Under the pieces are notes generated by a model, which was not told the origin of the DNA, did not search any database, and saw only the letters and a program-made list of their open reading frames with translations. Shown here one piece after another: positions 11,011 through 48,296 of a DNA stretch of 64,000 nt; position 1 is the first letter of the stretch; each line of letters starts with the position of its first letter. The position numbers and the translations under genes were made by a program. The stretch spans positions 62,001-126,000 of the forward strand of contig JANQFK010000023.1 in NCBI GenBank assembly GCA_028277885.1, in the 5' to 3' direction. This DNA is from Myxococcota bacterium. Lineage in GTDB: Bacteria; Myxococcota_A; UBA9160; UBA6930.

Positions 11011-11100
11011 GGGCTCTCTCCCGTCCTCCTCCCGGCCCCCCGGGCCGCGGAAGGTACCGGATCGGCAAGGTCGGGGTGGAGAGCGGCGCTCCGAAGCGAA

Positions 11101-11151
11101 GCGAGCCCTTCGGGCTCGCCTCGCGCTGGAGCCGACCGGTTCCGGGTCGGC
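11101..11151 (-). repeat. Dispersed two-hairpin repeat, copy A
   Basis: Read on the minus strand: hairpin 1 has arms GCCGACC and GGTCGGC (11131-11151); hairpin 2 is GCGAGCCC-gaa-GGGCTCGC (11101-11119). Hairpin 1 starts 5 bases after the stop of the SLOG-like gene, in that gene's orientation. The inter-hairpin spacer (tccagcgcgag) diverges from the other copies. It could act as a transcription terminator or mRNA 3' stabiliser. Confidence 0.75.
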
Positions 11152-11155
11152 CCCC

Positions 11156-11704
11156 CTAGGCGAAGGAGCGGGCGAACAGCTCCTCGATGGCGCGGCGGCC
11201 GTTCTCCTCGAGGAAGCGGGTGCCCGTGCCCGCGAAGTGGGGATGCGTGACGGTGGGGCCCGGGTCGGGCTCCCAGGTCTCGCCGGTCCAGTGGAACCAG
11301 CCGTCGCGCTCCTGGTCGAAGACGTAGAGCGGCTTGTTGCACAGCTTCGCGAACTCGGCGCCCCAGCCCGTGCCGCCCTTCACCGTCTGGTCCTCCAGGA
11401 TCCAGCCGACCACGTAGATCTCCTGGCCCTGGTTGACCTGGTGCCAGATGCTCTGGAGCACCTTCTTGAACAGCGTCGTGTCCGGGTACTTGCGGTTCAT
11501 GAGCTTGCTCACGTAGGCGAGGCTCACGTCGCCGTGGCGCAGCTCCTCCCGGGTCAGCACCCGGATGCCGCGCTGGCGGGCGTCGCGGTGGCCCTCGAAG
11601 GTGAAGTTCACCTCCTCGATGCCGTGGCGCTCGGCGGCGGCGCCGAACTCCGCCTCGGCGCCCTGGGCGGCGCCGCTGAAGAGGATGGTCTCGTCGGGCT
11701 TCAC
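11156..11704 (-). CDS. SLOG/Rossmann-like hypothetical protein
   Basis: 182 aa, GTG start behind GGAGG. It begins with a beta strand and small-residue loop (ETILFSGAAQGAEAEFG), and later has GQEIYVVGWI, VKGGTGWGAEFAKLCNKPLYVFDQ and a C-terminal helix. The alternating strand/helix order and the 'GGTGWGAEFAK...KPLYVFDQ' segment resemble the SLOG (LOG/DprA-like) nucleotide-binding superfamily and a poorly characterised group with relatives in eukaryotes. No experimental function is known to me. No membrane segment or signal peptide. It is monocistronic, and its stop is followed at once by repeat copy A. Confidence 0.55.
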   Translation of the reverse strand: MKPDETILFSGAAQGAEAEFGAAAERHGIEEVNFTFEGHRDARQRGIRVLTREELRHGDVSLAYVSKLMNRKYPDTTLFKKVLQSIWHQVNQGQEIYVVGWILEDQTVKGGTGWGAEFAKLCNKPLYVFDQERDGWFHWTGETWEPDPGPTVTHPHFAGTGTRFLEENGRRAIEELFARSFA

Positions 11705-12848: not shown

Positions 12849-12903
12849 CCTGGTTGAGCGAGCCCTTCGGGCTCGCTTTTCGGCGGAAGCCGACCCAGGC
12901 GGC
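12849..12903 (-). repeat. Dispersed two-hairpin repeat, copy B (hairpin 1 reduced)
   Basis: On the minus strand, directly after the thioesterase stop. Hairpin 2 is intact (GCGAGCCC-gaa-GGGCTCGC, complement of 12858-12876). Hairpin 1 has lost part of its left arm and reads GCCGCCTGGGTCGGC (12889-12903). The spacer ttccgccgaaaa matches copies C-E, and the tail tcaaccaggc resembles copy D. Orientation follows the upstream gene, as in copies A, C and D. Confidence 0.75.
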
Positions 12904-12907
12904 TCCC

Positions 12908-13738
12908 CTACGCGCTTCGGGGCATGGGCCGGAACAGCAGGGTCCCCGTGCCGCTTCCGGCCAGCGTGCCGTCCTCGCTCCAGATCCGGCTCGCGAAGGC
13001 CAGGCGCCCGGACGCGGCCAGTGGCGCGCGGCACTCCACGAGCAGCCACTCGCTCGCGAGGGGCCGGTGCAGCGCGGCGTGGAAGTCGAGGCTCACGGCG
13101 ATGAAGCGCTCGTCGCGGGGATGGCGCATGCGGGCCGCGGGGTAGGAGAGCGTGTCGAGGAGCACGAGGGCGCGGCCCGCGTCGAGCACGGGGTCGGCGA
13201 AGCTCGCCTCGGGCCGGAATCGGAACCAGCCCCGCGAGACCGGCTCCCGCTCGACCTCCACGGCGTCGACCATGGGGTCGATGGTGCGGCGCTCCACGTT
13301 CCTCCAGAACGGGTGGATGCGATCGGGCGGGAAGACCTTCTCGATGGGGTCCACCCCGTGGGAGGGAGGCACGTCGGGCATGGGGATCCCGTCGTGCTCG
13401 AGGCCGTCGCCCGGGCTCGCGAACCACAGCGTGGCCTCCAGCAGGCGGCGCTCGCCCTGGCTCATCACGACCCGGCGCAGCTCGGCGGTGCGCCCGCTGC
13501 GCAGCACCTCGACGGCGAGGTCCACGGGCTCGAAGCGTCCCGCCGAGAGGAAGTTCACGTGGCTCGTGACCAGCACGGGGAACGCGCAGTCGACGGCCGC
13601 GGCTCGCGCCGCGATGGTGGTCAGGTAGCCGCCGTTGGGGCCGAACAGGTTCCACGCACGGCGGAGCTCGGCCCGGAAGCGGCCGCCGCCCCGGGTCTCG
13701 ACGAGGGAGTCCGGGCCGAGTCCGCGGGTCTCCTCCAC
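12908..13738 (-). CDS. Acyl-CoA thioesterase-like double-hotdog protein
   Basis: 276 aa, GTG start. N-terminal half RRAWNLFGPNGGYLTTIAARAA is the helix-plus-Gly pattern of TesB/acyl-CoA thioesterase II double-hotdog proteins. The second half holds the other hotdog (FRFRPEASFADPVLDAGRALVLLDTLSYPA ... VSLDFHAALHRPLASEWLLVECRA). Such enzymes hydrolyse acyl-CoA thioesters to free acid and CoA. A TAGGCT hexamer ends only 6 bases before the GTG and no Shine-Dalgarno is present, so the transcript may be leaderless. It is divergent from the PlsC gene (146-base gap). Repeat copy B follows its stop. Confidence 0.75.
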   Translation of the reverse strand: MEETRGLGPDSLVETRGGGRFRAELRRAWNLFGPNGGYLTTIAARAAAVDCAFPVLVTSHVNFLSAGRFEPVDLAVEVLRSGRTAELRRVVMSQGERRLLEATLWFASPGDGLEHDGIPMPDVPPSHGVDPIEKVFPPDRIHPFWRNVERRTIDPMVDAVEVEREPVSRGWFRFRPEASFADPVLDAGRALVLLDTLSYPAARMRHPRDERFIAVSLDFHAALHRPLASEWLLVECRAPLAASGRLAFASRIWSEDGTLAGSGTGTLLFRPMPRSA

Positions 13739-18082: not shown

Positions 18083-18961
18083 GTGGGGGGCGGGCGGATC
18101 CTCGTCGAGGACGCCGACGGCGTCCGGCTCCTCACCCTGAACCGTCCCGAGCGGCGCAACGCCTTCGACCACCGCATGTGGCTGGAGCTGCGCGACGCAC
18201 TCCACGATGCGCGGCGGGACGACGCGGTCCGCGTGGTGGTGATGACCGGGGCCGGGTCCGCCTTCACCGCCGGCGCCGATCTCGGCGAGATGGCCGCGCC
18301 CCCCGCCGTGGAGGGCGCCGGCGAGCACGGCTTCGGGAGCTGCGTCGAGGCCTTCATCGACTTCGACAAGCCGCTGGTGGCGGCGGTGAACGGCGTGGGG
18401 GTCGGGGCCGGGCTCACCCTGCTGCTCTACTTCGACTACGTCTACATCGTGCGCGGCGCCCGGCTGCGCGCCCCCTTCGTGACCCTGGGCGTGGCCCCCG
18501 AGGCCGGCAGCAGCTACCTGCTCCCCGCCACCCTGGGCCACCGCGCCGCCCTGCAGCTGCTCTACGAGTCGGACTTCGTTCCGGCGGAGCGCGCCGTCGA
18601 ACTCGGCATCGCCGACGAGCTGTGCGAGCCCGACGCACTGCTCCCGCGCGCCCGGGAGCGCGCGCGCTGGCTGGCGCGCAAGCCGCTCGGCTCCCTGCGC
18701 GCCACCAAGCGCCTGCTGCTGGCGACCCGCAACGACCGCATCCGCGCCGCCCGCGCCCGGGAGGACGCGGCCTTCGAGCGGCGCGTGGGCTCGCCCGAGA
18801 ACGTCGAGGCCATCCGGGCCTTCTTCGAGAAGCGCGACGCCGACTTCTCGCGCGTGCCGAGCGCCGACCGCGAGCCGGCCGGCTCCGACTCGGCCCAGGG
18901 GGCCGACCCAGGATGGGTCGGCTTCCGCCGCAAGGCGAGCCCGAAGGGCCCGCTCGGCTAG
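18083..18961 (+). CDS. Enoyl-CoA hydratase/isomerase with repeat-derived C-terminus
   Basis: 292 aa, GTG start 2 bases after the ligase stop. Crotonase fold: NRPERRNAFDHRMWLEL, oxyanion loop AGSAFTAGADLGEM (about 57-70), FDKPLVAAVNGVGVGAGL, VTLGVAPEAGSSYLLPATLGH, ending in the usual helices (RKPLGSLRATKRLL). The position usually holding catalytic Glu in hydratases reads Ala-Gly-Ala-Asp-Leu then PEAGSS, which keeps the second acidic residue. It adds water to, or isomerises, 2-enoyl-CoA. The last ~20 residues (ADPGWVGFRRKASPKGPLG) are encoded by copy C of the dispersed two-hairpin repeat, so the normal end was probably near residue 270 and the repeat supplies tail and stop. Its stop overlaps the convergent exporter stop. 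Confidence 0.88.
   Translation: MGGGRILVEDADGVRLLTLNRPERRNAFDHRMWLELRDALHDARRDDAVRVVVMTGAGSAFTAGADLGEMAAPPAVEGAGEHGFGSCVEAFIDFDKPLVAAVNGVGVGAGLTLLLYFDYVYIVRGARLRAPFVTLGVAPEAGSSYLLPATLGHRAALQLLYESDFVPAERAVELGIADELCEPDALLPRARERARWLARKPLGSLRATKRLLLATRNDRIRAARAREDAAFERRVGSPENVEAIRAFFEKRDADFSRVPSADREPAGSDSAQGADPGWVGFRRKASPKGPLG
18902..18953 (+). repeat. Dispersed two-hairpin repeat, copy C (inside a coding 3' end)
   Basis: Hairpin 1: GCCGACCC-aggat-GGGTCGGC (18902-18922), perfect 8-bp arms. Spacer ttccgccgcaag. Hairpin 2: GCGAGCCC-gaa-GGGCCCGC (18935-18953), one arm mismatch. Here the element is translated as the C-terminus of the enoyl-CoA hydratase, and the stop codon lies just after it. Confidence 0.85.
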
Positions 18962-37482: not shown

Positions 37483-37512
37483 CGCGGCGCGCTCCCGGGA
37501 TCTCGACGGGCC

Positions 37513-37518
37513 ACGCTA
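37513..37518 (-). promoter_or_regulatory. Candidate -10 (TAGCGT) of P450-SDR-ALDH operon
   Basis: GATAGCGT on the minus strand, about 31 bases before the TTG start, in the 271-base divergent gap with the GGDEF-EAL gene. One of the TAnnnT hexamers of this window. Confidence 0.25.
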
Positions 37519-37753
37519 TCCCATCCGATCTCGCCGCGAAGCCGCCGCGCGCCCGACCGGCCCGGGGGCCCGGAGCGCTCTCCGGGGCCGCCCGCGACCA
37601 AGCCCGGTCCAGCGGATGGCCGCGCCGGCCCGCCCCGCCAGCCCGGTCCGGAGAGCGGCCCCGCGGGGACCAATCGAGTTGGAGTCCTCGGCCGATCCTG
37701 CCGATCCAGGAGGTGCGCGGGCGCGTCCTCGAGGTGCTCCGCGGGAGGGTGGA

Positions 37754-39628
37754 GTGTCCGAGCAGAGCGAGCCCAGGCCCGAGGACGCCGACTCCCTGAC
37801 GCTCCTGCTGGTGGCGGAGGACCCGCTGAGCGCCCGGCGCATCCGCGAGATGCTCGAGCGCCGCGAGGGCGAGGGCTCGCGCTTCTCGATCACCAGCGTG
37901 CCGCGGGTGGAGGACGCCCTCGTGCGCCTCCAGCACGGCGGCTTCGACGTGATGCTCCTCGACCACTCCGTGGACGAGGCCCACGGCCTCGACTCGCTCC
38001 AGCGCGCCCGGGTGGCGGCGCGCGCGGTGCCCGTCGTGGTGCTCACCTACCAGCGCGACGAGGACTTCGCCCTGGAGGCGGTGCGCACCGGCGCCCAGGA
38101 CTACCTCGCCAAGGGCGAGGTCACGCCGGCGCTGCTCGCCCGCACCCTGCTCCACGCCGTGGAGCGCCATCGCATGATGCGCGAGCTCACCCAGGCCCAG
38201 CAGCGCCAGCACTTCCTGGCCAGCCACGACGCCCTCACCAAGCTGCCCAACCGCTACTCCTTCCTCGCGTCGCTGCGCGGGCTGCTCGCCGAGGCCGAGC
38301 GCCGCCGCGAGGAGGTCGCGGTGCTGTTCTTCGACCTCGACGGCTTCAAGCGCATCAACGACAGCCTGGGCCACGCGGCCGGCGACGAGCTGCTCGGCGA
38401 CGTCGCGGGGCGGCTGCGGCGGCTGATCGGCAAGCGCGACCTGGTGGCGCGCCTCGGCGGCGACGAGTTCGTGGCCGCGCTGCCCGCCGTGCGCGACCCC
38501 CAGCGTCCCCTCGAGCTCGCCGAGACCATCCGCGCCGCCATCGAGAAGCCCTACTACCTGAACGGCCTCGAGTGCTGGGTGAGCACCAGCATCGGCATCT
38601 CCCGCCATCCCCGGGACGGGCGCGACGCCGACGCGCTGATCCGCTGCGCCGACGCGGCCATGTACCAGGCCAAGGGGGCGGGCAAGAACCAGATCCGCGA
38701 GTTCGACGAGCAGATGAACGAGAGCGCCCAGGAGCGCTTCGATCTGGTGAACGGCCTGCGCGACGCCATCCACAGCGGCCTGCTCGCGCTGATGTTCCAG
38801 CCCCAGGTCGACATCCAGCGCGAGGAGCTGGTGGCCGCCGAGACCCTGGTGCGCTGGCACCACCCGACCCGCGGCGCCATCTCCCCCACCGAGTTCATCC
38901 CCGTGGCCGAGGAGACCGGGCTGATGGTGCCCCTCGGCGAGTGGGTGCTGCGGACGGCCTGCGCGACGGCGGCGAGCTGGAGGGCGGTGCCCGGCGCCCG
39001 CGTCGCCGTCAACATCTCGGGGCGCCAGCTCGAGCAGCCCGACTTCTCGAGTCGCGTGCAGCGGATCCTCGAGGAGACGGGCCTGCCCCGGGAGCGGCTC
39101 GAGATCGAGCTCACCGAGTCCCTGGCGGCCAGCGACGGCGCGCTGGCCGTGCTCGAGCGCCTGCGGGAGCTGGGCATCCGCACCGCGATCGACGACTTCG
39201 GCACCGGCTACTCGTCCCTCACCCGCCTGCGCCGGCTGCCCGTCGACACCCTCAAGATCGACCGCTCCTTCGTGCACGGCGTGTCGCTGAACGACCCCGA
39301 CGCGGTGATCCTCGAGTCCATGATCCGCATCGCGTCGGGGCTCGGCCTCGAGGTGGTGGCCGAGGGCGTCGAGACCCTCGAGGAGATGGACGCGCTGCGC
39401 GCCCTCGGCTGCACGCTCATGCAGGGCTACCTGTTCAGCAAGCCCCTGCCGAAGATCGACTTCGAGGCCGAGGTGGGGCGCGAGGACGCCGAGTGGCGGA
39501 TGCCCCTCGACCGGCCCGAGGCCTGGCTACCGCTCGGCGAGCGCGCCGCGGAGCCCGAGCCCGGACCCGACGACGAGGGCAACCTGCCCGCCGTCCGCAA
39601 CCTCGGCAGCCGGCCGCGCCACGGCTAG
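37754..39628 (+). CDS. Response-regulator GGDEF-EAL cyclic-di-GMP protein
   Basis: 624 aa from GTG 37754 (GGAGG five bases upstream); the track start at 37616 adds a Pro/Ala/Arg stretch unlike REC proteins. Receiver domain at about 15-130: LLLVAEDPLSA acidic pair, MLLDHSV phospho-acceptor Asp, VVVLTY, DYLAKGE with the Lys. GGDEF domain: FFDLDGFKRINDSLGHAAGDELL and intact RLGGDEFVAALP; the RxxD inhibitory site reads GKRD, so feedback inhibition is probably lost. EAL domain: AETLVRW (ETL instead of EAL, catalytic Glu kept), NISGRQL, ELTES, AIDDFGTGYSSL, KIDRSFV, VVAEGVET. Both activities look possible. Signal and sensor kinase are unknown. Repeat copy D follows the stop by 3 bases. Confidence 0.94.
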   Translation: MSEQSEPRPEDADSLTLLLVAEDPLSARRIREMLERREGEGSRFSITSVPRVEDALVRLQHGGFDVMLLDHSVDEAHGLDSLQRARVAARAVPVVVLTYQRDEDFALEAVRTGAQDYLAKGEVTPALLARTLLHAVERHRMMRELTQAQQRQHFLASHDALTKLPNRYSFLASLRGLLAEAERRREEVAVLFFDLDGFKRINDSLGHAAGDELLGDVAGRLRRLIGKRDLVARLGGDEFVAALPAVRDPQRPLELAETIRAAIEKPYYLNGLECWVSTSIGISRHPRDGRDADALIRCADAAMYQAKGAGKNQIREFDEQMNESAQERFDLVNGLRDAIHSGLLALMFQPQVDIQREELVAAETLVRWHHPTRGAISPTEFIPVAEETGLMVPLGEWVLRTACATAASWRAVPGARVAVNISGRQLEQPDFSSRVQRILEETGLPRERLEIELTESLAASDGALAVLERLRELGIRTAIDDFGTGYSSLTRLRRLPVDTLKIDRSFVHGVSLNDPDAVILESMIRIASGLGLEVVAEGVETLEEMDALRALGCTLMQGYLFSKPLPKIDFEAEVGREDAEWRMPLDRPEAWLPLGERAAEPEPGPDDEGNLPAVRNLGSRPRHG

Positions 39629-39631
39629 GAG

Positions 39632-39692
39632 GCCGACCCAGGATGGTCGGCTCCCGCCGCAAAGCGAGCCCGAAGGGCTCGCTCAGCCAGGC
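39632..39692 (+). repeat. Dispersed two-hairpin repeat, copy D
   Basis: Begins 3 bases after the GGDEF-EAL stop. Hairpin 1: GCCGACC-caggat-GGTCGGC (39632-39651). Spacer tcccgccgcaaa. Hairpin 2: GCGAGCCC-gaa-GGGCTCGC (39664-39682), perfect 8-bp arms. The tail tcagccaggc is close to copy B's. Placement and symmetry fit a 3'-end or terminator role, but no T-run follows. Confidence 0.85.
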
Positions 39693-39719
39693 GTGACGGC
39701 CGGGAGACACGGCCGCGAG

Positions 39720-40535
39720 TCACGACCTGGAGTCGGGCCGGGAGGCCGGGTCCTCCTTCTCGTCCTCGTCGGCCTCGGTCAGCAGGTCGACGGTGGGCAG
39801 CGGCGCGCCCTCGAAGCGCGCCGGGTCGAGCCAGCTGCGCAGCCGGTAGCCGAGGATCAGCACGATCATGCGCAGGCCGAGCCGGGCCGCGACCCACTTG
39901 TTGCCCGTCACCGAGGAGGCGCCGACCCGCTCGGTGTAGTTCACGGGCACCTGGATGATCTTCATCCCCTTGAGGATGCTCAGCACCATCATCTCGGGGC
40001 CGAAGAACGAGCCGTCCACGGTGAAGTGGGGCTGGAGCCGCTCGAGGGCGTCGCGGCGCACGCAGCGCAGGGTGCAGCCGACGTCGGTGAGCGCCGTGGT
40101 GTTGAAGAGCCCCTCCATCAGCTTGGCGACGGCGTAGTTGCCCCACTTGAGGAACAGCCCCATGTTGGCGCCCTGCCAGATCAGCTCCTTCATGGTGCGG
40201 GTGCCGTAGACGACCTCGAAGTCCTCCGCGTAGGCGAGGAGCTTGCGCACGTCCCGGCCCCGGAAGGTGCCGTCGGGCTCCGAGACCAGGATCAGGTCGC
40301 CCGAGGCCTCCCGGAAGCCGCGTCGGATGGCGGCGCCGTAGCCCTGGCGCGGCTCGTGGATCTCCCGGGCGCTGGTGAGGGCCACCTCCTCGCTGGTCCC
40401 GGGAGCCGCGTTGTTGTTCACCACGAGGATCTCGTCCACCACGCCGGTGGCCTCGAACTCCTCGATGCTCGCGCGGATCGAGTCGCGCTCGGCGTAGGTC
40501 GGCAGCACCACGGAGACGCTCCGTCCGCACCACAT
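39720..40535 (-). CDS. Family 2 glycosyltransferase (dolichol-phosphate-mannose-synthase type)
   Basis: 271 aa from ATG 40535, 2 bases after the methyltransferase stop; the track's 349-aa form runs into that gene. GT-A fold: VSVVLPTYAERDSIRASIEEF, VDEILVVNNNAAPGTSE, GYGAAIRRGFREASGDLILVSEPDGTFRGRD (the DxD position reads EPDG), YGTRTM, GCTLRCVRRDALERL, VNYTERVGASSVTGNKWVAARLG. No transmembrane segments, except a weak C-terminal hydrophobic helix (RMIVLILGYRL). It transfers a sugar from a nucleotide donor to a lipid or glycan acceptor. Part of the operon with the methyltransferase and TMTC-like protein. Confidence 0.88.
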   Translation of the reverse strand: MWCGRSVSVVLPTYAERDSIRASIEEFEATGVVDEILVVNNNAAPGTSEEVALTSAREIHEPRQGYGAAIRRGFREASGDLILVSEPDGTFRGRDVRKLLAYAEDFEVVYGTRTMKELIWQGANMGLFLKWGNYAVAKLMEGLFNTTALTDVGCTLRCVRRDALERLQPHFTVDGSFFGPEMMVLSILKGMKIIQVPVNYTERVGASSVTGNKWVAARLGLRMIVLILGYRLRSWLDPARFEGAPLPTVDLLTEADEDEKEDPASRPDSRS

Positions 40536-40537
40536 GC

Positions 40538-41173
40538 CTAGGCGCGCTCCGCCACGACGTACATCTGGGCCGCCAGGGGGCGCAGCGGCGACGCCAGGTA
40601 GAGCCGGATCAGGATCGGCCGCTTGGGCAGGCGGCTCCTCATCGAGAACGGCAGCAGACCCGGCACCACGCGCCGCACGGGCAGGCCGTGGGCCGCCAGC
40701 CGCGGGCCCACGTTGCGGTCGTCGAAGATCGTCTTGTGGGTCGGATCGTCGAAGTAGTGCTCGGCGCACAGCCGGTGGTTGGGCTGGATCAGCACCAGCC
40801 GGCCCCCGGGCGCCAGGACGTCCCGCACGCGGGGCAGCAGCCTCGCCAGCTCCGCCTCGTCGAGGTGCTCGAGGAAGTTGCTCGCGAAGACGAGGTCCAC
40901 GCTGCCGGGCTCGAGGCCCGGAAGCTCCACCGCGTCGGCGAGCCGGAACTCCACCTCCGGGCCCGCGTGGACCGCCATCTCGGGGTTCAGGTCGTAGGCG
41001 ATGCGGCGCTCGGCGGGGAAGGCGTTGGCGAAGTCGCAGTAGCCCGCGCCCAGCTCGACCAGGGTCCCCACCGGCGGGACGTCCCGGGCCACGTAGCGCG
41101 CGATCTCCCGCCAGACGCCGCGGCGGGCCTCGAGCACGGGGTAGGCGCCCACGTAGGGGTTGGCGGCGCTCAC
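40538..41173 (-). CDS. Class I SAM-dependent methyltransferase
   Basis: 211 aa from GTG 41173, overlapping the preceding stop (GTGA). Motif I VGTLVELGAGYCDFANAFP (about 37-55), acidic motif Asp in IAYDLNPEMAVHAG, VEFRLADAVELPGLEPGSVDLVFASNFLEHLDEAELARLLPRVRDVLAPGGRLVLIQPNHR: the usual Methyltransf_11/23 order. The substrate is not evident. By operon context it may methylate a sugar or lipid-linked intermediate. The long track ORFs through this region are shadows that join two genes. Confidence 0.88.
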   Translation of the reverse strand: MSAANPYVGAYPVLEARRGVWREIARYVARDVPPVGTLVELGAGYCDFANAFPAERRIAYDLNPEMAVHAGPEVEFRLADAVELPGLEPGSVDLVFASNFLEHLDEAELARLLPRVRDVLAPGGRLVLIQPNHRLCAEHYFDDPTHKTIFDDRNVGPRLAAHGLPVRRVVPGLLPFSMRSRLPKRPILIRLYLASPLRPLAAQMYVVAERA

Positions 41174-43014
41174 GGGGCGAGGCTCCGGCGCAGGGCCCGG
41201 ATGTCCTCGGCCAGGTACGGGAAGCGCGCCTCGTCGTAGTTGGCGGCCAGCAGGGTCCGGCTCTCGGCCGCGAGCCGCGGGTCGTTCTGGGCGAAGCGCG
41301 TGAAGGCGACGAAGTAGCCGAAGGAGCGCCGCACGAGGGCCTCGCGCTGGGCGGCCTCGGCGCCGGCGGCGAGGTCGAAGTAGCGCCCGGCGAGCTTCAT
41401 CGCGTTGGCGCGGTCCGGGGCCAGCGCGTAGGCGCGCTCGAAGTGGGCCAGCTGCTCCGCGACCGGCGCGGCCTCGAGCACCGCGATGCGGCCGAGCAGC
41501 TGGTGGAGCCGCGAGAGGTGGAGCTGGTCCGGCACCCGGTAGCGGCTCGGCTGCCGGCCCATGGCGCGCTCGCGCTCGAGACCGCGGGCGATCTGCGCGC
41601 GGGCGCGGTCCAGCCACTCGGCCCGGCGCGCCGGGTCGGGCTCCGCCTCGGCGCGCCGCACGTGGATCTTGGCCAGGGCCTGGAGGGAGAGCAGGGAGGG
41701 GGCGTCGAGGCTCGCCTCGTGGGTCCACAGCGTCTCGTTGTTCCGCCACACGCCGAGCTGGCGCCAGGTCTGGACCGCCGAGGCCGTCGCGAAGAGCAGC
41801 GCCAGGGCCACCACGCCGAAGGAGACGAGCGGCGCGCCCTGCGCCCGGGCCCGCAGCTCGAGGCCGAGCTGGGTCGCCAGGGCGAGCAGTCCGAAGCAGG
41901 CGAGGTAGAGGTAGCGGTCCGCGCTCCAGAACCCCACGTAGGCGAAGCCCAGGTAGGGGACGAGCAGCACGCCGAAGGCGAGGGCGTGGAAGGCGAGGTC
42001 GCGGCGCCGCCAGAGCAGGATGGCGAGGACGCCGGCAGCGAGCAGCGCGATCGCGGCCGCGGCGGCCTGCTCGACGGGGCTGAGCGGGATCTCGACGTGG
42101 GGCCAGCGGTAGAACATCGAGAGCTGGCTCGGCCAGACCAGGTGCTTCACGTACAGCCCGAGCAGCAGCGGGGCGAAGCGCGCCATGGTGGCGAGATGGC
42201 CGGGATCGAGCCCGTCGGGCCCGCGCCAGCCGATCACCCCGTAGTCGCGCACGATGCCCTGGTACCAGAGGAAGATGCCGACGGAGAGCGCGGCGTGGGG
42301 CGCGAGCCGGGGCAGGGCCGCCGCGAGCGACTCCCGCCAGCGGAAGGGCGCGTCGGGGGCGCGGCTCCCGTCGAGGTAGGGCTGGAAGACGCGGTGCAGC
42401 CCGAGCAGCACGCAGAGCACGACGGCGCTGATCTTCGAGAGCAGGGCGAGGAGCGTCAGGAGCAGCGTGGTGGCCCACAGCAGGCGTCGCGTGCGGGGCT
42501 CGGGGGAGGCCAGCTCGAGGGTCTGGGCGACGAGCGCCAGCAGCATCCACGTGGTGGAGAGCAGGTCCTTGCGTCCCATCACCCAGCCCACCGGCTCGGC
42601 GTGGACCGGCACCACCACGAACAGGCCGGCCACGATGCCGGCGAAGGCGAGGCGCCGGGTGGCGAGGGCCAGGAAGGCGAAGAGCAGGGCGGCGTTCAGC
42701 CCGTTCAGGAGGACGTTCCCGAGGTGGTAGCCGAGGGGGTTGGCGTGGCCGAAGAGGCGGGCGTCGAGGGCCCAGCTCACGTCGCGCACGAGCAGCGGCT
42801 CCTCGCGCGGGAAGTGCTCCACGAAGATCTGGCCGAGGCTGCTCGTGAAGGAGCGCTCGTCGTAGAGGTTCGGGTGGGCGAGCAGCACCGTGGTGTCGTC
42901 GAAGTTCACGAAGTCGAAGCCGACGGCCCGGCCGTAGAGGGCAAGGCTGGCCAGGAACAGCACGAGCCCGGCGAGCAGGAGCCGCCGGGGCGTCACGGGC
43001 TGGCTGTCGGGCAC
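41170..43014 (-). CDS. TMTC/DUF1736-like polytopic membrane protein with TPR tail
   Basis: 614 aa from GTG 43014 (GGAGG eight bases upstream). About ten helices, then 200 soluble residues. The first luminal loop FDFVNFDDTTVLLAHPNLYD and PVHAEPVGWVMGRKDLLSTTWMLLALV match the conserved Asp-Asp loop and VHPVHxEAVxWxxGRKDxL motif of the TMTC/GT-C O-mannosyltransferase-related family. The C-terminal part carries TPR-like helices (LSLQALAKIHVRRAEAEPD; AHFERAYALAPDRANAMKLAGRYFDLA). GT-C enzymes use polyprenyl-phosphate sugars, and the GT2 two genes on could make such a donor. Transfer to protein or glycan in the periplasm is inferred. Confidence 0.8.
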   Translation of the reverse strand: MPDSQPVTPRRLLLAGLVLFLASLALYGRAVGFDFVNFDDTTVLLAHPNLYDERSFTSSLGQIFVEHFPREEPLLVRDVSWALDARLFGHANPLGYHLGNVLLNGLNAALLFAFLALATRRLAFAGIVAGLFVVVPVHAEPVGWVMGRKDLLSTTWMLLALVAQTLELASPEPRTRRLLWATTLLLTLLALLSKISAVVLCVLLGLHRVFQPYLDGSRAPDAPFRWRESLAAALPRLAPHAALSVGIFLWYQGIVRDYGVIGWRGPDGLDPGHLATMARFAPLLLGLYVKHLVWPSQLSMFYRWPHVEIPLSPVEQAAAAAIALLAAGVLAILLWRRRDLAFHALAFGVLLVPYLGFAYVGFWSADRYLYLACFGLLALATQLGLELRARAQGAPLVSFGVVALALLFATASAVQTWRQLGVWRNNETLWTHEASLDAPSLLSLQALAKIHVRRAEAEPDPARRAEWLDRARAQIARGLERERAMGRQPSRYRVPDQLHLSRLHQLLGRIAVLEAAPVAEQLAHFERAYALAPDRANAMKLAGRYFDLAAGAEAAQREALVRRSFGYFVAFTRFAQNDPRLAAESRTLLAANYDEARFPYLAEDIRALRRSLAP

Positions 43015-43145
43015 GGGGCTCCCCTCCCACCGACTCCAGGCACGGTCCGCCGGCAGCAGGGACGGCGGGCCCACGTCTGGCATCGGCCGGTGGGGGTCGG
43101 GGCTGAAGCCCCTCGGGCGCCGGCTCCGAGGGGCGGGCGGGGCCC

Positions 43146-43967
43146 CTAGATGCCCTCGCCGAGGTTCGGGGTCGGGCCCTGGCGCAGCTCGAGCCGGGGC
43201 TCGCCGATGGTGACCCGGGTGTAGGGCGGCACGGACTCCGAGAGCCACACGTTGCCGCCGATCACCGCGCCGGTCCCGATCACCGTCTCGCCGCCCAGGA
43301 TGGTGGCGTTCGGGTAGATGGTGACGTCGCTCTCGATGGTGGGATGGCGCTTGCTGCCCACGTCGGCGCGGCCGCGCTTGTTCGAGAAGGCCGCGAGGGT
43401 GACGCCGTGATAGAGCTTCACGCGATCGCCGATCACGCAGGTCTCGCCGATCACGACGCCCGTGCCGTGGTCCACGAAGAAGTGCGTGCCGATGCGGGCG
43501 CCGGGGTGGATGTCGATCCCGGTGGCGCTGTGGGCCTCCTCGGTCATGATGCGCGCCACCACGCCCTCGCCCACCTGGTAGAACGCGTGGGCGATGCGGT
43601 AGGTCGAGACCGCGCGGATCGAGGGGTAGGCGGCGATCACCTCGCCGTAGCTGATGGCCGAGGGGTCCCGCTCGAAGGCCGCCGCCACGTCCGTGGCCAC
43701 CAGGCGCCGGATGTCCGGGAGGCGCTCCATGAGCGCGGTGGCCTTCTCGCCGCCGACCAGCGCCGCCACGATCCCGTGCACCACCCGCAGGTCGCTCTCG
43801 AGCTGCTCGGTGGGGGTGTGGTCGGTCACCAGCGCGCGCAGGGCCCCCAGCGCATCGCCCACCCGCCGCGTGTAGGGCAGCACCTCGGTGCCGGCCTCGG
43901 TCACGGGATCGGTCTCGCTGCGGATCTTGCGCAGGGCCTCGGCGACGTTCTCGATGCCGTCCGCCAT
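43146..43967 (-). CDS. cysE: Serine O-acetyltransferase
   Basis: 273 aa, ATG start with GAGGAGGA upstream. The N-terminal helical domain (about 1-125) is followed by the left-handed beta-helix acetyltransferase part: HSATGIDIHPGARIGTHFFVDHGTGVVIGETCVIGDRVKLYHGVTLAAFS, with catalytic His residues, then KRHPTIESDVTIYPNATILGGETVIGTGAVIGGNVWLSESVPP. The length matches the longer CysE/EpsC type. It makes O-acetylserine, the cysteine precursor. No cysK is adjacent. TAGACT 24 bases upstream may be the -10. Confidence 0.93.
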   Translation of the reverse strand: MADGIENVAEALRKIRSETDPVTEAGTEVLPYTRRVGDALGALRALVTDHTPTEQLESDLRVVHGIVAALVGGEKATALMERLPDIRRLVATDVAAAFERDPSAISYGEVIAAYPSIRAVSTYRIAHAFYQVGEGVVARIMTEEAHSATGIDIHPGARIGTHFFVDHGTGVVIGETCVIGDRVKLYHGVTLAAFSNKRGRADVGSKRHPTIESDVTIYPNATILGGETVIGTGAVIGGNVWLSESVPPYTRVTIGEPRLELRQGPTPNLGEGI

Positions 43968-43990
43968 CGGGTCCTCCTCGGGCCGCCGAC

Positions 43991-43996
43991 AGTCTA
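43991..43996 (-). promoter_or_regulatory. Candidate -10 (TAGACT) of cysE
   Basis: GCTAGACT on the minus strand, 24 bases before the ATG. It follows the TAnnnT pattern and is preceded by a run of G/C without a clear -35. Confidence 0.3.
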
Positions 43997-44140
43997 GCGC
44001 CGGCCCCGCGGCGGCCCGCGGGGGGCGAGGGCCGGGCAGGGGCCCGGGGTGAGCCCCGTCACCGCGCGCGGGGCGGCGCCGGGCGATACCCCGGACCGAC
44101 GGCGCCGGCGCCTGCGCGCGCCCCGCCGAGGAGAGGACCC

Positions 44141-44812
44141 ATGACGAACCCCCGCTCCCGATGGCTCCGCCGGCTCGCTCCCGGGCTGGCCTTCGCGCTG
44201 GCCGCGACCCTCGCCTCCGCAGAGGAGGTGGACGTCGAGTCGCCCGGGGCCGGCGCCGCCCCCGCCAAGGCCGCGCCCCTGCCCGAGGTCGGGGTGCAGC
44301 CGGCTGCCCAGCCCGCAGCCCAGCCTGCAGCCCGGATGGACTCCGCCGCCCCGGCGACCGAGGGCCGCGCCGAGCCGGCTCGGCCGGCCGCGAGCGCCAC
44401 CCCTGCGAAGCCTCCGAGGCCGGAGGGCAGCGTGTCGCGCGCCGCCTTCGCCACCTCGATCCACGAGCGCGAGCCCGTCGGCGAGGTCACCCACCTGACC
44501 GAGGACACCGAGCGCGTCTTCTTCTTCAGCGAGCTGATCGGCCTCACCGGGCGCACCGTCGTCCATCGCTGGGAGCACCAGGGCGAGCTCATGGCCGAGG
44601 TTCCCTTCGAGGTGGGCGGGCCCCGCTGGCGCGTGCACTCGAGCAAGCGGCTGCTGCCGGGCTGGACCGGCGCCTGGACCGTCTCGGTGGTCGACGAGGC
44701 GGGCGAGGTGCTCCACACCCGCTCGCTCGTCTACGACCCGGTGGTGTTGACCGGCTCCACCGAGGCCGCGCCCGAGGAGAGCGAGCTTCCCCCCGCCTCG
44801 CTGCTGGAGTAG
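44141..44812 (+). CDS. Exported DUF2914-domain protein
   Basis: 223 aa, ATG start behind GAGGAGAGG. Signal peptide SRWLRRLAPGLAFALAATLASAEE. An Ala/Pro-rich linker of about 75 residues includes three near-identical QPAAQPAA units. The C-terminal ~110 residues match the DUF2914 beta-rich domain: VSRAAFATSIHEREPVGEV, VFFFSELIGLTGRTVVHRWEHQGELMAEVPFEVGGPRWRVHSSKRLLPGWTGAWTVSVVDEAGEVLHTRSLVYD. Function of the domain is unknown; it is usually at the C-terminus of envelope proteins. It stands alone, followed by the CBS protein gene after about 60 bases. Confidence 0.82.
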   Translation: MTNPRSRWLRRLAPGLAFALAATLASAEEVDVESPGAGAAPAKAAPLPEVGVQPAAQPAAQPAARMDSAAPATEGRAEPARPAASATPAKPPRPEGSVSRAAFATSIHEREPVGEVTHLTEDTERVFFFSELIGLTGRTVVHRWEHQGELMAEVPFEVGGPRWRVHSSKRLLPGWTGAWTVSVVDEAGEVLHTRSLVYDPVVLTGSTEAAPEESELPPASLLE

Positions 44813-44872
44813 GCGCGGCCCCAGCCGACGGCGGCTCTCCGGGGCCGCCCGCCGGAGGGCGCCCGGCCGCAC

Positions 44873-44878
44873 TATGCT
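44873..44878 (+). promoter_or_regulatory. Candidate -10 (TATGCT), possible leaderless CBS gene
   Basis: TATGCT, 7 bases before GTG 44886. If active, it would make the GTG the natural leaderless start of the CBS protein instead of ATG 44874, which lies inside the hexamer. Confidence 0.3.
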
Positions 44879-45872
44879 AGGCGGCGTGGCGGAGCACGAC
44901 GGCCGGATCTTCGAGCGGGCCGCCGAGGCGATCGGCGCGCTGCCCTGCGAGGCCGTGCTGCCGGGGGACCGGCCCCTGGAGAGCACGACGCCCGACGCGG
45001 ACCTGCGCACCGCCGCCAACCTGCTGTGGTGGCGCAAGGTCGGCGCGCTTCCGGTGCTCGAGGACGGCCGCCTCGTCGGCTGCTTCGCCGAGGAGGATCT
45101 GCTGCGCGCGCTGGCCCAGCGGCTCGCGGGCGGCGACGCCGCGGCCTCGGCGGACGGTCGCCTGGGCGTCTGGGACGCCGTCCTCGCCAAGACCACGGTG
45201 CGCGAGGCCATGACGCCCGTCGAGCGGCTGCCGGTCGCGGAGCCCGGCGCGACCCTGCTCGGCGCGCTGCGCGAGTCCGTCGCCGACGACGGCTCCCACG
45301 GCCGCTACCTGTTCCTGGTGGACGAGAGCGAGGGCCAGCGGGTCCGGCTCGCCTCCTTCCGCGACGTGGCGCGGACCCTCACCACGCTCTACGACGGCCA
45401 GGGCTCCCTGGGCGCGCTCGGCGGCGACGCGGCGGACCGGGCGCGCCATGCGACCCAGGGCGTGCTGGGCCTGCCCATCGGCTCGGTGCGGCGCAGCAAG
45501 GCCTTCGGCCACGAGCCGCGGGTCGTGGCCTCCACCCTCAACGTGGCCGAGGCGATCCAGGCGATGTGGAGCGGGGGGCGCGGCTACGTGATCGTGACGA
45601 CGCCCGAGGGCGAGCCCATGGGCATCTTCACGCGGCGCGACGTGCTGCGCGCCTGCGTGCCGCGCTACGCCGACCTGGCCGCGCTGCCCCTGGCGGGCGC
45701 CATGAGCCGGCGCGTTCGCACCGTCACCGAGACCGTCACCCTGTGCGGCCTGTTCAAGCTGATGGCGCTCGAGTCCTGTCGCCACATGCCGCTGGTCGAC
45801 GACTGGGACCGGGTCCAGTCCGTGATCTCCATGTGGGAGACCGTCTCGCTGCTGGTGGGTGAGGCTCCCTAG
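44874..45872 (+). CDS. Four-CBS-domain protein
   Basis: 332 aa from ATG 44874, or 328 from GTG 44886; no Shine-Dalgarno supports either, and a TATGCT hexamer overlaps the ATG. Two CBS pairs: STTPDADLRTAANLLWWRKVGALPVLEDGRLVGCFAEEDLLRAL then TVREAMTPVERLPVAEPGATLLGAL; and PRVVASTLNVAEAIQAMWSGGRGYVIVTTPEGEPMGIFTRRDVLRACV then AGAMSRRVRTVTETVTLCGLFKLMALESCRHMPLVD. CBS pairs bind adenosyl ligands and act as energy sensors. No catalytic domain is attached, so it is probably a partner-binding regulator. It converges on the cytochrome c gene with a 4-base overlap. Confidence 0.87.
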   Translation: MLGGVAEHDGRIFERAAEAIGALPCEAVLPGDRPLESTTPDADLRTAANLLWWRKVGALPVLEDGRLVGCFAEEDLLRALAQRLAGGDAAASADGRLGVWDAVLAKTTVREAMTPVERLPVAEPGATLLGALRESVADDGSHGRYLFLVDESEGQRVRLASFRDVARTLTTLYDGQGSLGALGGDAADRARHATQGVLGLPIGSVRRSKAFGHEPRVVASTLNVAEAIQAMWSGGRGYVIVTTPEGEPMGIFTRRDVLRACVPRYADLAALPLAGAMSRRVRTVTETVTLCGLFKLMALESCRHMPLVDDWDRVQSVISMWETVSLLVGEAP

Positions 45873-46453
45873 GGCAGCTCCCCGGGGTAGGCCGGCTCCG
45901 CCAGGGCGCGCATGTACGCCACCACGGCCCAGATCTCGTCCTCGGAGAGCACCGAGCCCCAGGCCGTCATCAGCGGCGACTTGCCCACCGCCATGCCGCC
46001 CTCGTCCACCACCTTGTAGAGGTGGTCGTTGGAGAGCGCGTTCATGTAGCCGCCGTCGGTGTGGTCGGCGGGCTTCGGGTTCATGCCCGCGGCCGCCGGG
46101 CCGTCGCCGGCGCCGGCGGCGCCGTGGCAGCTGGCGCAGTAGCTCGCATAGAGCGGCTCGCCGGTCGCCGCGTCCCGGCTCGCGGCCGGCGCCGTCTGGG
46201 CGGCCGGGCTCGCCGTCGCGGCGGCGGGCACGGCCGCTGCCGGGGCCGCGGCGGGGGCGACGGCCGGCACGGCGGGCGCCTCGACGACCCGCCCCGGGAT
46301 CTCGCCGTTCGCCGCGCGGCGGATCCGCTCCTCGACGCCGTCGTCGGGAAGGATCCGACTCTTCACCATCGCGTCGTCGGAGACGTTGCAGCCCAGGGCC
46401 GGCGCCAGTCCGAGGACCCCGGCCAGGGCGGCGACCACGATTCGCAGCTTCAT
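45869..46453 (-). CDS. Lipoprotein class I cytochrome c
   Basis: 194 aa, ATG start with GAGGAGG upstream. Lipoprotein signal MKLRIVVAALAGVLGLAPALGCNVSDD (lipidation at the Cys of ALGC). A linker of about 60 residues rich in Ala/Pro/Val follows, then a mono-heme domain: YASYCASCHGAAGAGDG (CxxCH) and distal Met in KSPLMTAWGSVLSEDEIWAVVAYMRAL. It would be anchored in a membrane, facing the periplasm, and shuttle electrons on a flexible tether. No oxidase or reductase subunits are adjacent, so the partner is unknown. Confidence 0.9.
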   Translation of the reverse strand: MKLRIVVAALAGVLGLAPALGCNVSDDAMVKSRILPDDGVEERIRRAANGEIPGRVVEAPAVPAVAPAAAPAAAVPAAATASPAAQTAPAASRDAATGEPLYASYCASCHGAAGAGDGPAAAGMNPKPADHTDGGYMNALSNDHLYKVVDEGGMAVGKSPLMTAWGSVLSEDEIWAVVAYMRALAEPAYPGELP

Positions 46454-46576
46454 CGGAACGAGACCTCCTCACCCCCGGGCGGACCCCACCGCCCGACGCG
46501 GTCGGAGGGATACCTGTTGAACGGCGGGGCGGCAACGTCCCACGTCTGAGGCCGCGCCTCAGAGGCTCGACCGCAA

Positions 46577-46593
46577 CCATATGAAAAATATGG
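46577..46593. other. AT-rich palindrome CCATAT-N5-ATATGG
   Basis: Perfect 6-bp arms around gaaaa, 13 bases past the 3' end of the aldehyde dehydrogenase gene, in the most AT-rich patch of the window. A second inverted repeat, CTGAGGC-cgc-GCCTCAG (46546-46562), lies next to it. It could be a terminator of the minus-strand gene or an upstream control site for the cytochrome c gene. Confidence 0.35.
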
Positions 46594-46605
46594 GGAAAGA
46601 CGGAC

Positions 46606-47988
46606 TCAGAGTCGCTCTCGGATCCATACCGTCTTCAGGTTGGTGAACTCCCGGAGCCCCTCGGCGCCGAGCTCGCGCCCGTAGCCCGAGCGACCGATGC
46701 CGCCGAAGGGCAGGCGCGGATCGCTCTTCACCACGCCGTTCACGAAGACCGAGCCCGCCTCGAGCCTCGGCACCAGGGCCTCGGCGCGCTCCGCGTCGCC
46801 GCTCCAGACGCTGGCGCCGAGCCCGTAGTCGGTGTCGTTGGCCAGCGCGACGGCCTCCTCGACGGAGCCGGCGCGCAGCACGGCGGCCACGGGACCGAAG
46901 GTCTCCTCGCAGCCGGCGGCCTGGTCCGGGGTCACGCGGTCGAGCAGGGTGGGGGGGAAGAAGAAGCCCACGCCCTCGGGCCGCTTGCCGCCGAGCACGA
47001 GGCGGGCGCCTGCCGCGAGGCTGCGCTCGACCTGGGACTCGAGGGCGTCGCGCAGGTCCGCCCGGGCCAGCGGCCCCACGTCCACCGAGCGGTCGAGCCC
47101 CGGGCCCACCCGCAGCGCGGCGAGCTCGGCGCGCAGGGCCTCCACGAAGGCGTCGGCCACGGGCTCCATCACCACGAAGCGCTTCGCGGCGATGCAGCTC
47201 TGGCCGGAGTTGAGGGTGCGCGACACGCAGGCCTGGCGGGCCGCGGCGGCGGGGTCGGCGTCGTCGAGCACCACGAAGGGGTCGCTGCCGCCGAGCTCGA
47301 GCACGCTCTTCTTGAGCGCCGCGCCGGCGCGGGCGGCGACGTCGGCGCCCGCGCGCTCGCTCCCCGTGAGGGTCACGGCGCGCACCGCCGGGTGGGCGAT
47401 CAGGGCCGCCACGCGCTCCCGCGCCACGAGGAGGTTCTGGAACGTTCCCTCCGGCGCGCCGGCCCGGGCGAGCAGGGACTCGATGGCCTCGGCACAGCCG
47501 GGCACGTTCTCGGCGTGCTTCAGCAGGCCCACGTTGCCCGCCATCAGCGCCGGCGCGGCGAAGCGGAACACCTGCCAGTAGGGGAAGTTCCACGGCATCA
47601 CGGCCAGCACCGCGCCGAGCGGGTCGTGGCGCACGCCGCTGCGGTCGGCGTCGCTCTCGAGGGAGCGCGGGGCGAGCAGGGCCTCGGCGCTCTCGGCGTA
47701 GAAGTCGCAGCCCACGGCACACTTCTCGATCTCGGCCTCGGCCTCGGCCTGGGCGATGGGCTTGCCCATCTCGCGCACCATGCGCCGGGCGTGCCCGTCC
47801 CGCTCTGCGCGCAGCAGCTCCCCGGCGCGGCGCAGCACCGCGGCGCGCTCGACGAAGGAGGTCTCCCGCCAGGCCGCGAAGCCGCGGGCCGCGCGCTCGA
47901 GCCGGGCGGTCACCTCGGGCTCGGGGTGCTCGTCGTAGCGCGCGAAGCACTCCTCGGTCGCCGGGTCGAGGGAGCGGAACGGGCTCAT
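46606..47988 (-). CDS. Aldehyde dehydrogenase (succinate-semialdehyde-dehydrogenase type)
   Basis: 460 aa from ATG 47988 (GGAGG upstream). The longer track start would translate repeat copy E. ALDH features: AVMPWNFPYWQVFRFAAPALMAGNVGLLKHAENVPG, LTGSERAGADVAARAG, KKSVLELGGSDPFVVLDDAD (general base Glu), NSGQSCIAAKRFVV (nucleophile Cys), CEETFGPVAAVLRAGSVEEAVALANDTDYGLGASV, LPFGGIGRSGYGREL. Length near 455-460 and the PWNFPYWQV/GVGxGxSR-type pattern resemble GabD/Sad enzymes acting on succinate semialdehyde or similar. Monocistronic; flanked by the AT-rich palindrome downstream and repeat copy E upstream. Confidence 0.92.
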   Translation of the reverse strand: MSPFRSLDPATEECFARYDEHPEPEVTARLERAARGFAAWRETSFVERAAVLRRAGELLRAERDGHARRMVREMGKPIAQAEAEAEIEKCAVGCDFYAESAEALLAPRSLESDADRSGVRHDPLGAVLAVMPWNFPYWQVFRFAAPALMAGNVGLLKHAENVPGCAEAIESLLARAGAPEGTFQNLLVARERVAALIAHPAVRAVTLTGSERAGADVAARAGAALKKSVLELGGSDPFVVLDDADPAAAARQACVSRTLNSGQSCIAAKRFVVMEPVADAFVEALRAELAALRVGPGLDRSVDVGPLARADLRDALESQVERSLAAGARLVLGGKRPEGVGFFFPPTLLDRVTPDQAAGCEETFGPVAAVLRAGSVEEAVALANDTDYGLGASVWSGDAERAEALVPRLEAGSVFVNGVVKSDPRLPFGGIGRSGYGRELGAEGLREFTNLKTVWIRERL

Positions 47989-48015
47989 GGGCACCTCCTG
48001 CCCCCATGCCAGGAG

Positions 48016-48067
48016 GCCGACCCAGGATGGGTCGGCTTCCGCCGCAAAGCGAGCCCGGAGGGCTCGC
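48016..48067 (+). repeat. Dispersed two-hairpin repeat, copy E (no gene stop beside it)
   Basis: Hairpin 1: GCCGACCC-aggat-GGGTCGGC (48016-48036), perfect. Spacer ttccgccgcaaa. Hairpin 2: GCGAGCCC-gga-GGGCTCGC (48049-48067), perfect arms. Unlike copies A-D it lies between two divergent gene starts, so no gene ends at its left side; an upstream gene may have been lost, or the element may have moved here. Confidence 0.85.
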
Positions 48068-48213
48068 CCAGCCAGCGCCGGCCGCGCAACTCCCGGATCC
48101 GGCAGGGGTTCCAATCGGGGCCCGGTGCGACCGGCCCGCGCGTTCGAATCCCGGAACGCGAAGGGCGGTCGAACCTCCAGGCCCCCGGGGCGGGTGCCCG
48201 AGGCGGGGCCGGG

Positions 48214-48274
48214 TAGTGTTGGAGGAGCGTCGTCAACACCGCATCGTTGGGTGTGGGGCGCTGGGGGACGACGC
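48214..48274 (+). promoter_or_regulatory. Candidate -10 and structured 5' leader of HTH/TPR gene
   Basis: TAGTGT at 48214-48219 predicts a start near 48226. The following RNA can pair GCGTCGTC (48227-48234) with GACGACGC (48267-48274) and, inside, ACACC with GGTGT. The Shine-Dalgarno AGGAGGA comes about 10 bases after this stem. The shape suggests a leader or 5' stabiliser; it fits no riboswitch class I know. Confidence 0.35.
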
Positions 48275-48296
48275 GTCGGTAGGAGGAGGGCTCGGC

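Follow-up and report, generated by a model that had tools for sequence, protein, structure and literature searches.

A CTAG-bounded two-hairpin repeat at the stop codons of a Myxococcota genome, probably a miniature mobile element

Why should one short, strongly structured sequence recur in a Myxococcota bacterium at the very stop codons of its genes? The question is raised by a two-hairpin unit located at 39625..39690 of the window, by which we mean the whole stretch of 64,000 nucleotides analyzed here, and by four further copies within it. An earlier note, drawn up from the letters and their open reading frames, had proposed that the repeat could be a mobile terminator, an mRNA 3' stabilizer or a protein-binding site, perhaps lineage-specific. 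We favor, with a probability of about 0.6, the reading that it is a miniature mobile DNA element, non-autonomous and mobilized in trans.

Results

The repeat is a covarying two-hairpin unit bounded by CTAG

An alignment of the five window copies and 28 further copies from the genome gives a 67-nt consensus, CTAG GAG GCCGACCC aggat GGGTCGGC TTCC GCC GC aaa GCGAGCCC gaa GGGCTCGC T CA GC TAG, the layout of which is CTAG-GAG-hairpin1-gcCGCCGCAA-hairpin2-TCAG-CTAG. The five copies are present as the earlier note described them, scoring 63-91 bits with a covariance model (E 3e-16 to 9e-11), but the unit is longer than the ~52-65 bases it was given, extending over ~67 nt from CTAG to CTAG. Similarly, the first hairpin is real, but its arms are longer than first drawn, reaching GGAGGCCGACCC/GGGTCGGCTTCC. 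The consensus folds into two hairpins with an energy of -46.6 kcal/mol (z = -6.6 versus dinucleotide shuffles). Chance hairpins are ruled out by the excess of the 19-nt hairpin-2 motif, which at up to three mismatches has 11 matches in the window versus 0.49 expected in shuffles, and by the hairpin-2 pattern in the host genome, with 137 matches versus 3 for a reversed-pattern control. Curated covariance models from Rfam found no match across the window, nor at the 39625..39690 copy with E values up to 1, and the element had no match in viral contigs and plasmids.

The arms are kept while the sequence changes, as had been noticed in the window. In 22 diverse sequences, pairing holds in 96.3% of cells, versus 82.0 when shuffled and 29-45 when slid. 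Double changes are seen in 12 of the 20 stem pairs, and at most 1 of 500 shuffles attains any covariation measure. Across carrier genomes the terminal CTAGs and the CGMCGCRA spacer stay constant, and in every carrier hairpin 1 and hairpin 2 are unlike in sequence.

Four of the five window copies lie at gene ends

The full element at 39625..39690 (copy D, plus strand; 87.8 bits and E 1.2e-15 with covariance model R1) sits between convergent genes. The upstream GGDEF/EAL gene (37754-39628, identified by gene calls and Pfam) has its stop in the left CTAG of the element, and the right end reads CCAG. On the same strand, the consensus fold and alignment place hairpin 1, GGAGGCCGACCC-aggat-GGTCGGCTCCC, at 39628..39656, with one G missing from its 3' arm, and the fold and a pattern match place hairpin 2, AGCGAGCCC-gaa-GGGCTCGCT, at 39663..39683. 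Copy A (11093..11158, minus strand, 64.2 bits) has a decayed right end and a left CTAG that is the stop of the gene at 11156-11704(-), the orthologues of which in two other genomes (G013 and G010) terminate in a bare CTAG, without the element; for the window copies this comparison covers orthologous gene ends only, the genomes of the host's family being too rearranged for both flanks. In copy B (12850..12912, minus strand, 63.1 bits), stem 1 is shortened and the left end is GTAG, which forms the stop of a thioesterase gene (12908-13738(-), Pfam). Copy C (18895..18961, plus strand, 88.7 bits) has a left CTAG mutated to CCAG, and because of this change an enoyl-CoA hydratase ORF (18083-18961, with Pfam ECH_1 spanning residues 11-256 of 292) continues across the element as far as the right-hand CTAG, a stop common to that ORF and to the gene at 18958-20229(-). 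Copy E (48009..48075, plus strand, 90.7 bits), which reads CCAG at both ends, lies between the divergent genes 46606-47994(-) and 48297-49418(+). The proposed tie to gene 3' ends is therefore upheld for copies A, B and D, whose left-end TAG is the upstream stop, and for copy C, which overlaps a gene end, but not for copy E, placed between divergent starts.

The element is abundant in the host and patchy within its order

The repeat is by no means limited to the window, since in the draft host genome (5.19 Mb) R1 detects at least 142 copies at E <= 0.01, a minimum for which the best 150 candidates were scored. Of the findings that the earlier note had named as refuting it, a mere handful of copies and stems free of covariation are thus both contradicted. 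Among 122 distinct host copies, the left and right ends are CTAG in 62 and 53, CCAG in 22 and 29, and CTGG in 10 and 11 respectively; GTAG is not among the common ends, though copy B carries one. The same genome harbors a sister family of like design with other stems, CTAGGAGGCTGACCC-gagag-GGGTCAGCC-GACGACGCGAGA-GATTCCGC-gaa-GCGGAATC-GCAGCTAG, whose hairpin 2 has ~47 matches versus 0 for a reversed-pattern control (L396-L425). This family is often fused to the first via one common CTAG, and hybrids are found at two loci (L397 and L401).

Beyond the host, R1 and a broader model, R2, identify the element, at E <= 1e-5, in 14 of the 91 members of the class, with several copies each in about ten genomes (G000, which is the host, G023, G032, G035, G044, G046, G054, G056, G059 and G077). 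Diverged versions sit in other families of the host's order. The same search turned up nothing in the remaining 13 genomes from the family to which the host belongs, or in the 11 class members that fall outside the order. A degenerate pattern run over 85,462 species representatives matched in 52 stretches, nearly all of them within MAGs titled Deltaproteobacteria, delta proteobacterium/Myxococcota or Myxococcales; lone matches in Nostoc, Microvirga, Methylotenera and one archaeal MAG were taken as chance or contamination. The suspicion that the element is lineage-specific was thus well founded, its diverged versions being patchy within one order of delta-proteobacterial/myxococcal MAGs, a distribution that suits a mobile element.

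Near-identical copies and empty sites reveal recent mobility

Mobility, which had been one of several suggestions, is confirmed by near-identical copies with unrelated flanks in one genome and by six pairs of filled and empty sites among congeners. In the genome concerned (G023), a 75-nt version is present in 20 copies that share ~96% identity between their CTAGs, seven of them matching the consensus exactly, and identity falls to background from the first base outside CTAG. These copies were mostly gathered with a pattern requiring CTAG, which makes their 100% CTAG ends partly a matter of ascertainment but does not affect the drop in identity.

The six loci come from four species of one genus (g25: G054, G044, G032 and G056), the element or an array of it being present in one species and absent from another. 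Five of the six pairs show a single NTAG in the empty allele and a tetranucleotide of this kind at both ends of the insertion in the filled one. At site 1, gctgtt-CTAG in three sister species corresponds to gctgtt-CTAG-(three elements)-CTAG in G054; at sites 2, 3 and 4 the sister species carry TTAG, GTAG and GTAG; at site 5, ggtc-CTAG-cgtt in G054 faces CTAA-(two elements)-CTAG in G044; and at site 6, which is decayed, an empty CGAG faces a filled CCAG...CGAG. At sites 1, 3, 4 and 5 a called gene has this TAG as its stop codon, whether the allele is empty or filled. Several of the junctions hold extra indels. As the base preceding TAG in the sisters is G or T at three of the six pairs, the target could be NTAG rather than CTAG, and a single NTAG in the empty site versus two in the filled one is what would be seen either with a 4-bp target duplication or with a fixed terminal CTAG joined to a target CTAG. 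Elements also form tandem arrays with single shared CTAGs (L066, L174:6220-6422 and L328:4757-4961), and array size differs between sister species. Together, these observations show a recently mobile, dispersed element bounded by CTAG on both sides.

CTAG is largely confined to stop codons and intergenic DNA

The gene neighborhood was analyzed with a codon-usage gene caller trained on the host genome. In 464 kb of host DNA (G000:C39 and the window), CTAG occurs 154 times versus 573-1067 expected, and only seven non-element sites fall within genes; 79 of 138 sites are stop codons and 53 are intergenic. CTAG is the stop tetranucleotide in 105 of 389 genes, and 13 of the 54 convergent gene pairs overlap by exactly four bases. 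A CTAG serves as a TAG stop on both strands at 13 sites, 12 of which are without the element. With CTAG nearly absent inside host genes, an insertion at this tetranucleotide has to fall mostly at stop codons or in intergenic DNA, and since CTAG reads the same on both strands, the two genes of a convergent pair can each retain a TAG stop. Placement at gene 3' ends is thereby mostly explained without any RNA function. Among the 122 host copies, the left CTAG is the stop of the left gene in 55, the right CTAG that of the opposite gene in 36, and both hold in 11. G023 gives a similar picture (12 of 18 copies convergent, with 12 and 11 stops at the ends). In G054, which has 63% GC, CTAG is not kept out of genes (48 of 138 sites are inside), and therefore selection or another cue must contribute there.

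Both neighbors were called for 118 host copies, which lie between convergent genes in 77 cases, co-directional genes in 36 and divergent genes in 5. The convergent share of 65% exceeds both the 14% of all gene pairs (p = 4e-26) and the 28% (36 of 130) of non-element CTAG sites outside gene interiors (p = 3e-9). This excess over the available CTAG sites hints that copies between co-directional or divergent genes are additionally weeded out by selection, and is best read as the loss of copies that would disturb a downstream gene; a helpful role as a terminator would be compatible with it. The claim that the element always points in the same direction as its gene is true of copies A-D but does not extend to the genome, where co-directional sites have 20 sense and 16 antisense copies (p = 0.62). 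The rule thus describes four copies and does not hold for the family as a whole. A scan of 37500-49000 for T-tract terminators made no call at copies D and E, and what follows hairpin 2 is TCAGCTAG, not the T-tract of an intrinsic terminator.

Y1 transposases are not associated with the element

A mobilizing enzyme was sought among Y1, RAYT and IS200 genes in the host's own genome, eight carriers and 61 genomes, and none was found. The earlier note had advised looking for a RAYT-type transposase. Y1 transposases (PF01797) are no commoner in element-carrying genomes (3 of 9) than in non-carriers (22 of 52), the genomes being drafts that are 77-98% complete, which weakens single absences; one 98%-complete carrier holding 27 copies has no Y1 gene. 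G000, G023 and G032, which are among the richest carriers, each have one RAYT-like Y1 gene, whose open frame spans ~310-370 aa, and at the six Y1 loci checked, theirs included, no element lies alongside. The host's own (L032, G000:C72:24620-24949) encodes a RAYT-like Y1 transposase of ~310-366 aa flanked by its own inverted GGGGACGTTCCTT...AAGGAACGTCCCC, ends that differ from those of the element. Inspection of the host IS200 copy (L031) likewise showed ends unlike those of the element, and no model matched it significantly. RAYT and IS200 were set aside as the likely mover, in view of the missing association between Y1 genes and carriers and of the Y1 loci devoid of elements. Two genomes without a detected element (G005 and G024) have 30 and 11 PF01797 matches, mostly partial, suggesting Y1 expansions in relatives. 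The host's GC skew is too weak to tell the replichores apart, and hence to reveal the replication-strand bias expected of single-strand transposition.

Discussion

How might such an element move? Absence of terminal inverted repeats, subterminal hairpins, a fixed tetranucleotide and arrays sharing CTAGs together resemble the anatomy of single-strand HUH substrates, that is, IS200/IS605 ends and REPINs (PMC6006769, PMC8266576, PMC3116915). By analogy with the Y1 HUH enzymes acting at IS200/IS605 ends, and with REPINs, which are thought to be moved likewise, a nuclease/ligase would recognize the folded hairpins, most simply on single-stranded DNA, cut at CTAG, excise the unit and join it to another CTAG. 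Selection would then purge copies where two strong hairpins harm downstream expression, leaving mostly those at convergent sites, which may incidentally act as bidirectional 3'-end structures. We tentatively go one step further, at somewhat less than even odds: this could be an undescribed transposition system, in which an enzyme other than the known Y1/RAYT moves structured, CTAG-bounded units and the stop codon is a safe landing site that preserves both flanking gene ends.

An ordinary REP/REPIN family, tagged with GTAG, moved by a RAYT and with CTAG as a diverged tag, would account for much of this. The layout is that of a REP doublet: each hairpin has a tetranucleotide at its foot, and the many copies are intergenic, at gene 3' ends and between convergent genes; GTAG REPs likewise supply TAG stops to adjoining ORFs (PMC3733652), classes of TnpA-Y1 without the GT[AG]G motif exist (PMC6006769), and three rich carriers do have RAYT-like Y1 genes. 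We nevertheless find this account improbable, given that GTAG is not common among the ends of the 122 copies, that hairpin 1 and hairpin 2, in contrast to the halves of a REPIN, have unrelated sequences, that Y1 genes do not follow the element (3 of 9 carriers against 22 of 52 non-carriers, and none in the 98%-complete carrier with 27 copies), and that the host RAYT has different inverted ends and no element nearby. Still less probable is a MITE derived from an IS5-type DDE insertion sequence, with duplication of a 4-bp CTAG target. One NTAG in empty sites and two in filled ones do resemble such a duplication, which some other double-strand transposase could conceivably make as well, but there is no terminal inverted repeat: in the carrier genera compared, the left ends are GAGGCCGACC, CAGGCCGACC and GAGCGCGATC and the right ends, read inward, CTGAGCGAGC, CTGACGGAGC and CTGGCGAATC. 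Moreover, the interior is made up of two distinct hairpins with covarying stems, and drift of the ends is accompanied by compensation.

The element could instead be a bidirectional terminator or mRNA 3'-end stabilizer that has spread mainly for its usefulness between convergent genes. Both the convergent enrichment (65% versus 14% of gene pairs and 28% of CTAG sites) and the stable fold, with stems kept by compensation, speak for such a role, although stem compensation is equally expected from recognition of folded DNA. The scanned copies D and E have no T-tract, antisense copies are about as frequent as sense ones, and exact CTAG borders with insertion polymorphism are typical of a mobile element; furthermore, the element is not needed, since it is absent from all 13 other genomes of the host's family. 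We consider selection for such a function an unlikely origin of the family, and the miniature mobile element remains our preferred reading.

Among known systems, REP doublets, REPINs and BIMEs with RAYT (TnpA-REP) come closest, being short intergenic two-hairpin units with a tetranucleotide heading each hairpin (PMC3733652, PMC3116915, PMC6006769). They share with the element compensating stem changes, many copies, enrichment downstream of genes and between convergent ones, and a terminal TAG used as a stop; a position at gene 3' ends, with ORFs borrowing the TAG, is already known for GTAG-tagged REPs (PMC3733652). However, the tag of the element is CTAG at both ends and not GTAG (GT[AG]G), its hairpins are two different sequences (GCCGACCC/GGGTCGGC and GCGAGCCC/GGGCTCGC) with a conserved spacer rather than an inverted pair of one REP, it has no RAYT association, and its empty sites are precise NTAGs. 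PATEs of Haloquadratum are palindrome-associated, hairpin-ended units without a transposase, derived from IS605-type elements (PMC3119063). Like them, the element has no transposase, no terminal inverted repeats, near-terminal palindromes and strain-specific insertions (PMC3119063), and it shows the features of IS200/IS605 derivatives: no terminal inverted repeat, subterminal hairpins and insertion beside a fixed tetranucleotide. PATEs, however, are reported without target duplications and their palindromes match IS605-type transposons, whereas the element has CTAG at both ends, and no parent transposon with its ends was found in a comparison covering the host IS200 copy L031. What is new relative to REPs and PATEs is thus the tag, the unlike hairpin pair, the lack of a RAYT association and the NTAG empty sites. 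Bacterial MITEs such as RUP, Correia/NEMIS, CIR and YPAL are also non-autonomous and under 200 bp, many with target duplication and hairpin transcripts (PMC2229807). They mostly have terminal inverted repeats with a terminal TA, unlike the two internal hairpins of the element, which has no such repeats and targets CTAG and stop codons.

Where CTAG is nearly confined to stops and intergenic DNA, targeting CTAG largely amounts to targeting stop codons. MIRUs of mycobacteria have been reported to insert at the stop codons of genes; they differ from the element in having a small ORF and in being located between co-directional genes. The palindromic CTAG leaves one TAG stop per strand, and a mobile element of this kind would spare a gene-dense genome by landing between genes, with the stop codons on both sides intact. 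It would also bring into the REP-like world an uncultured delta-proteobacterial/myxococcal order in which the tag is another one and the enzyme is apparently different or missing, and so give the hunt for that enzyme a concrete object. A further consequence is seen in copy C: the enoyl-CoA hydratase ORF has been lengthened by ~22 codons via the element, the far-end TAG being in frame at an offset of 63, that is, 21 codons, and the second TAG thus catches read-through once the original stop is lost.
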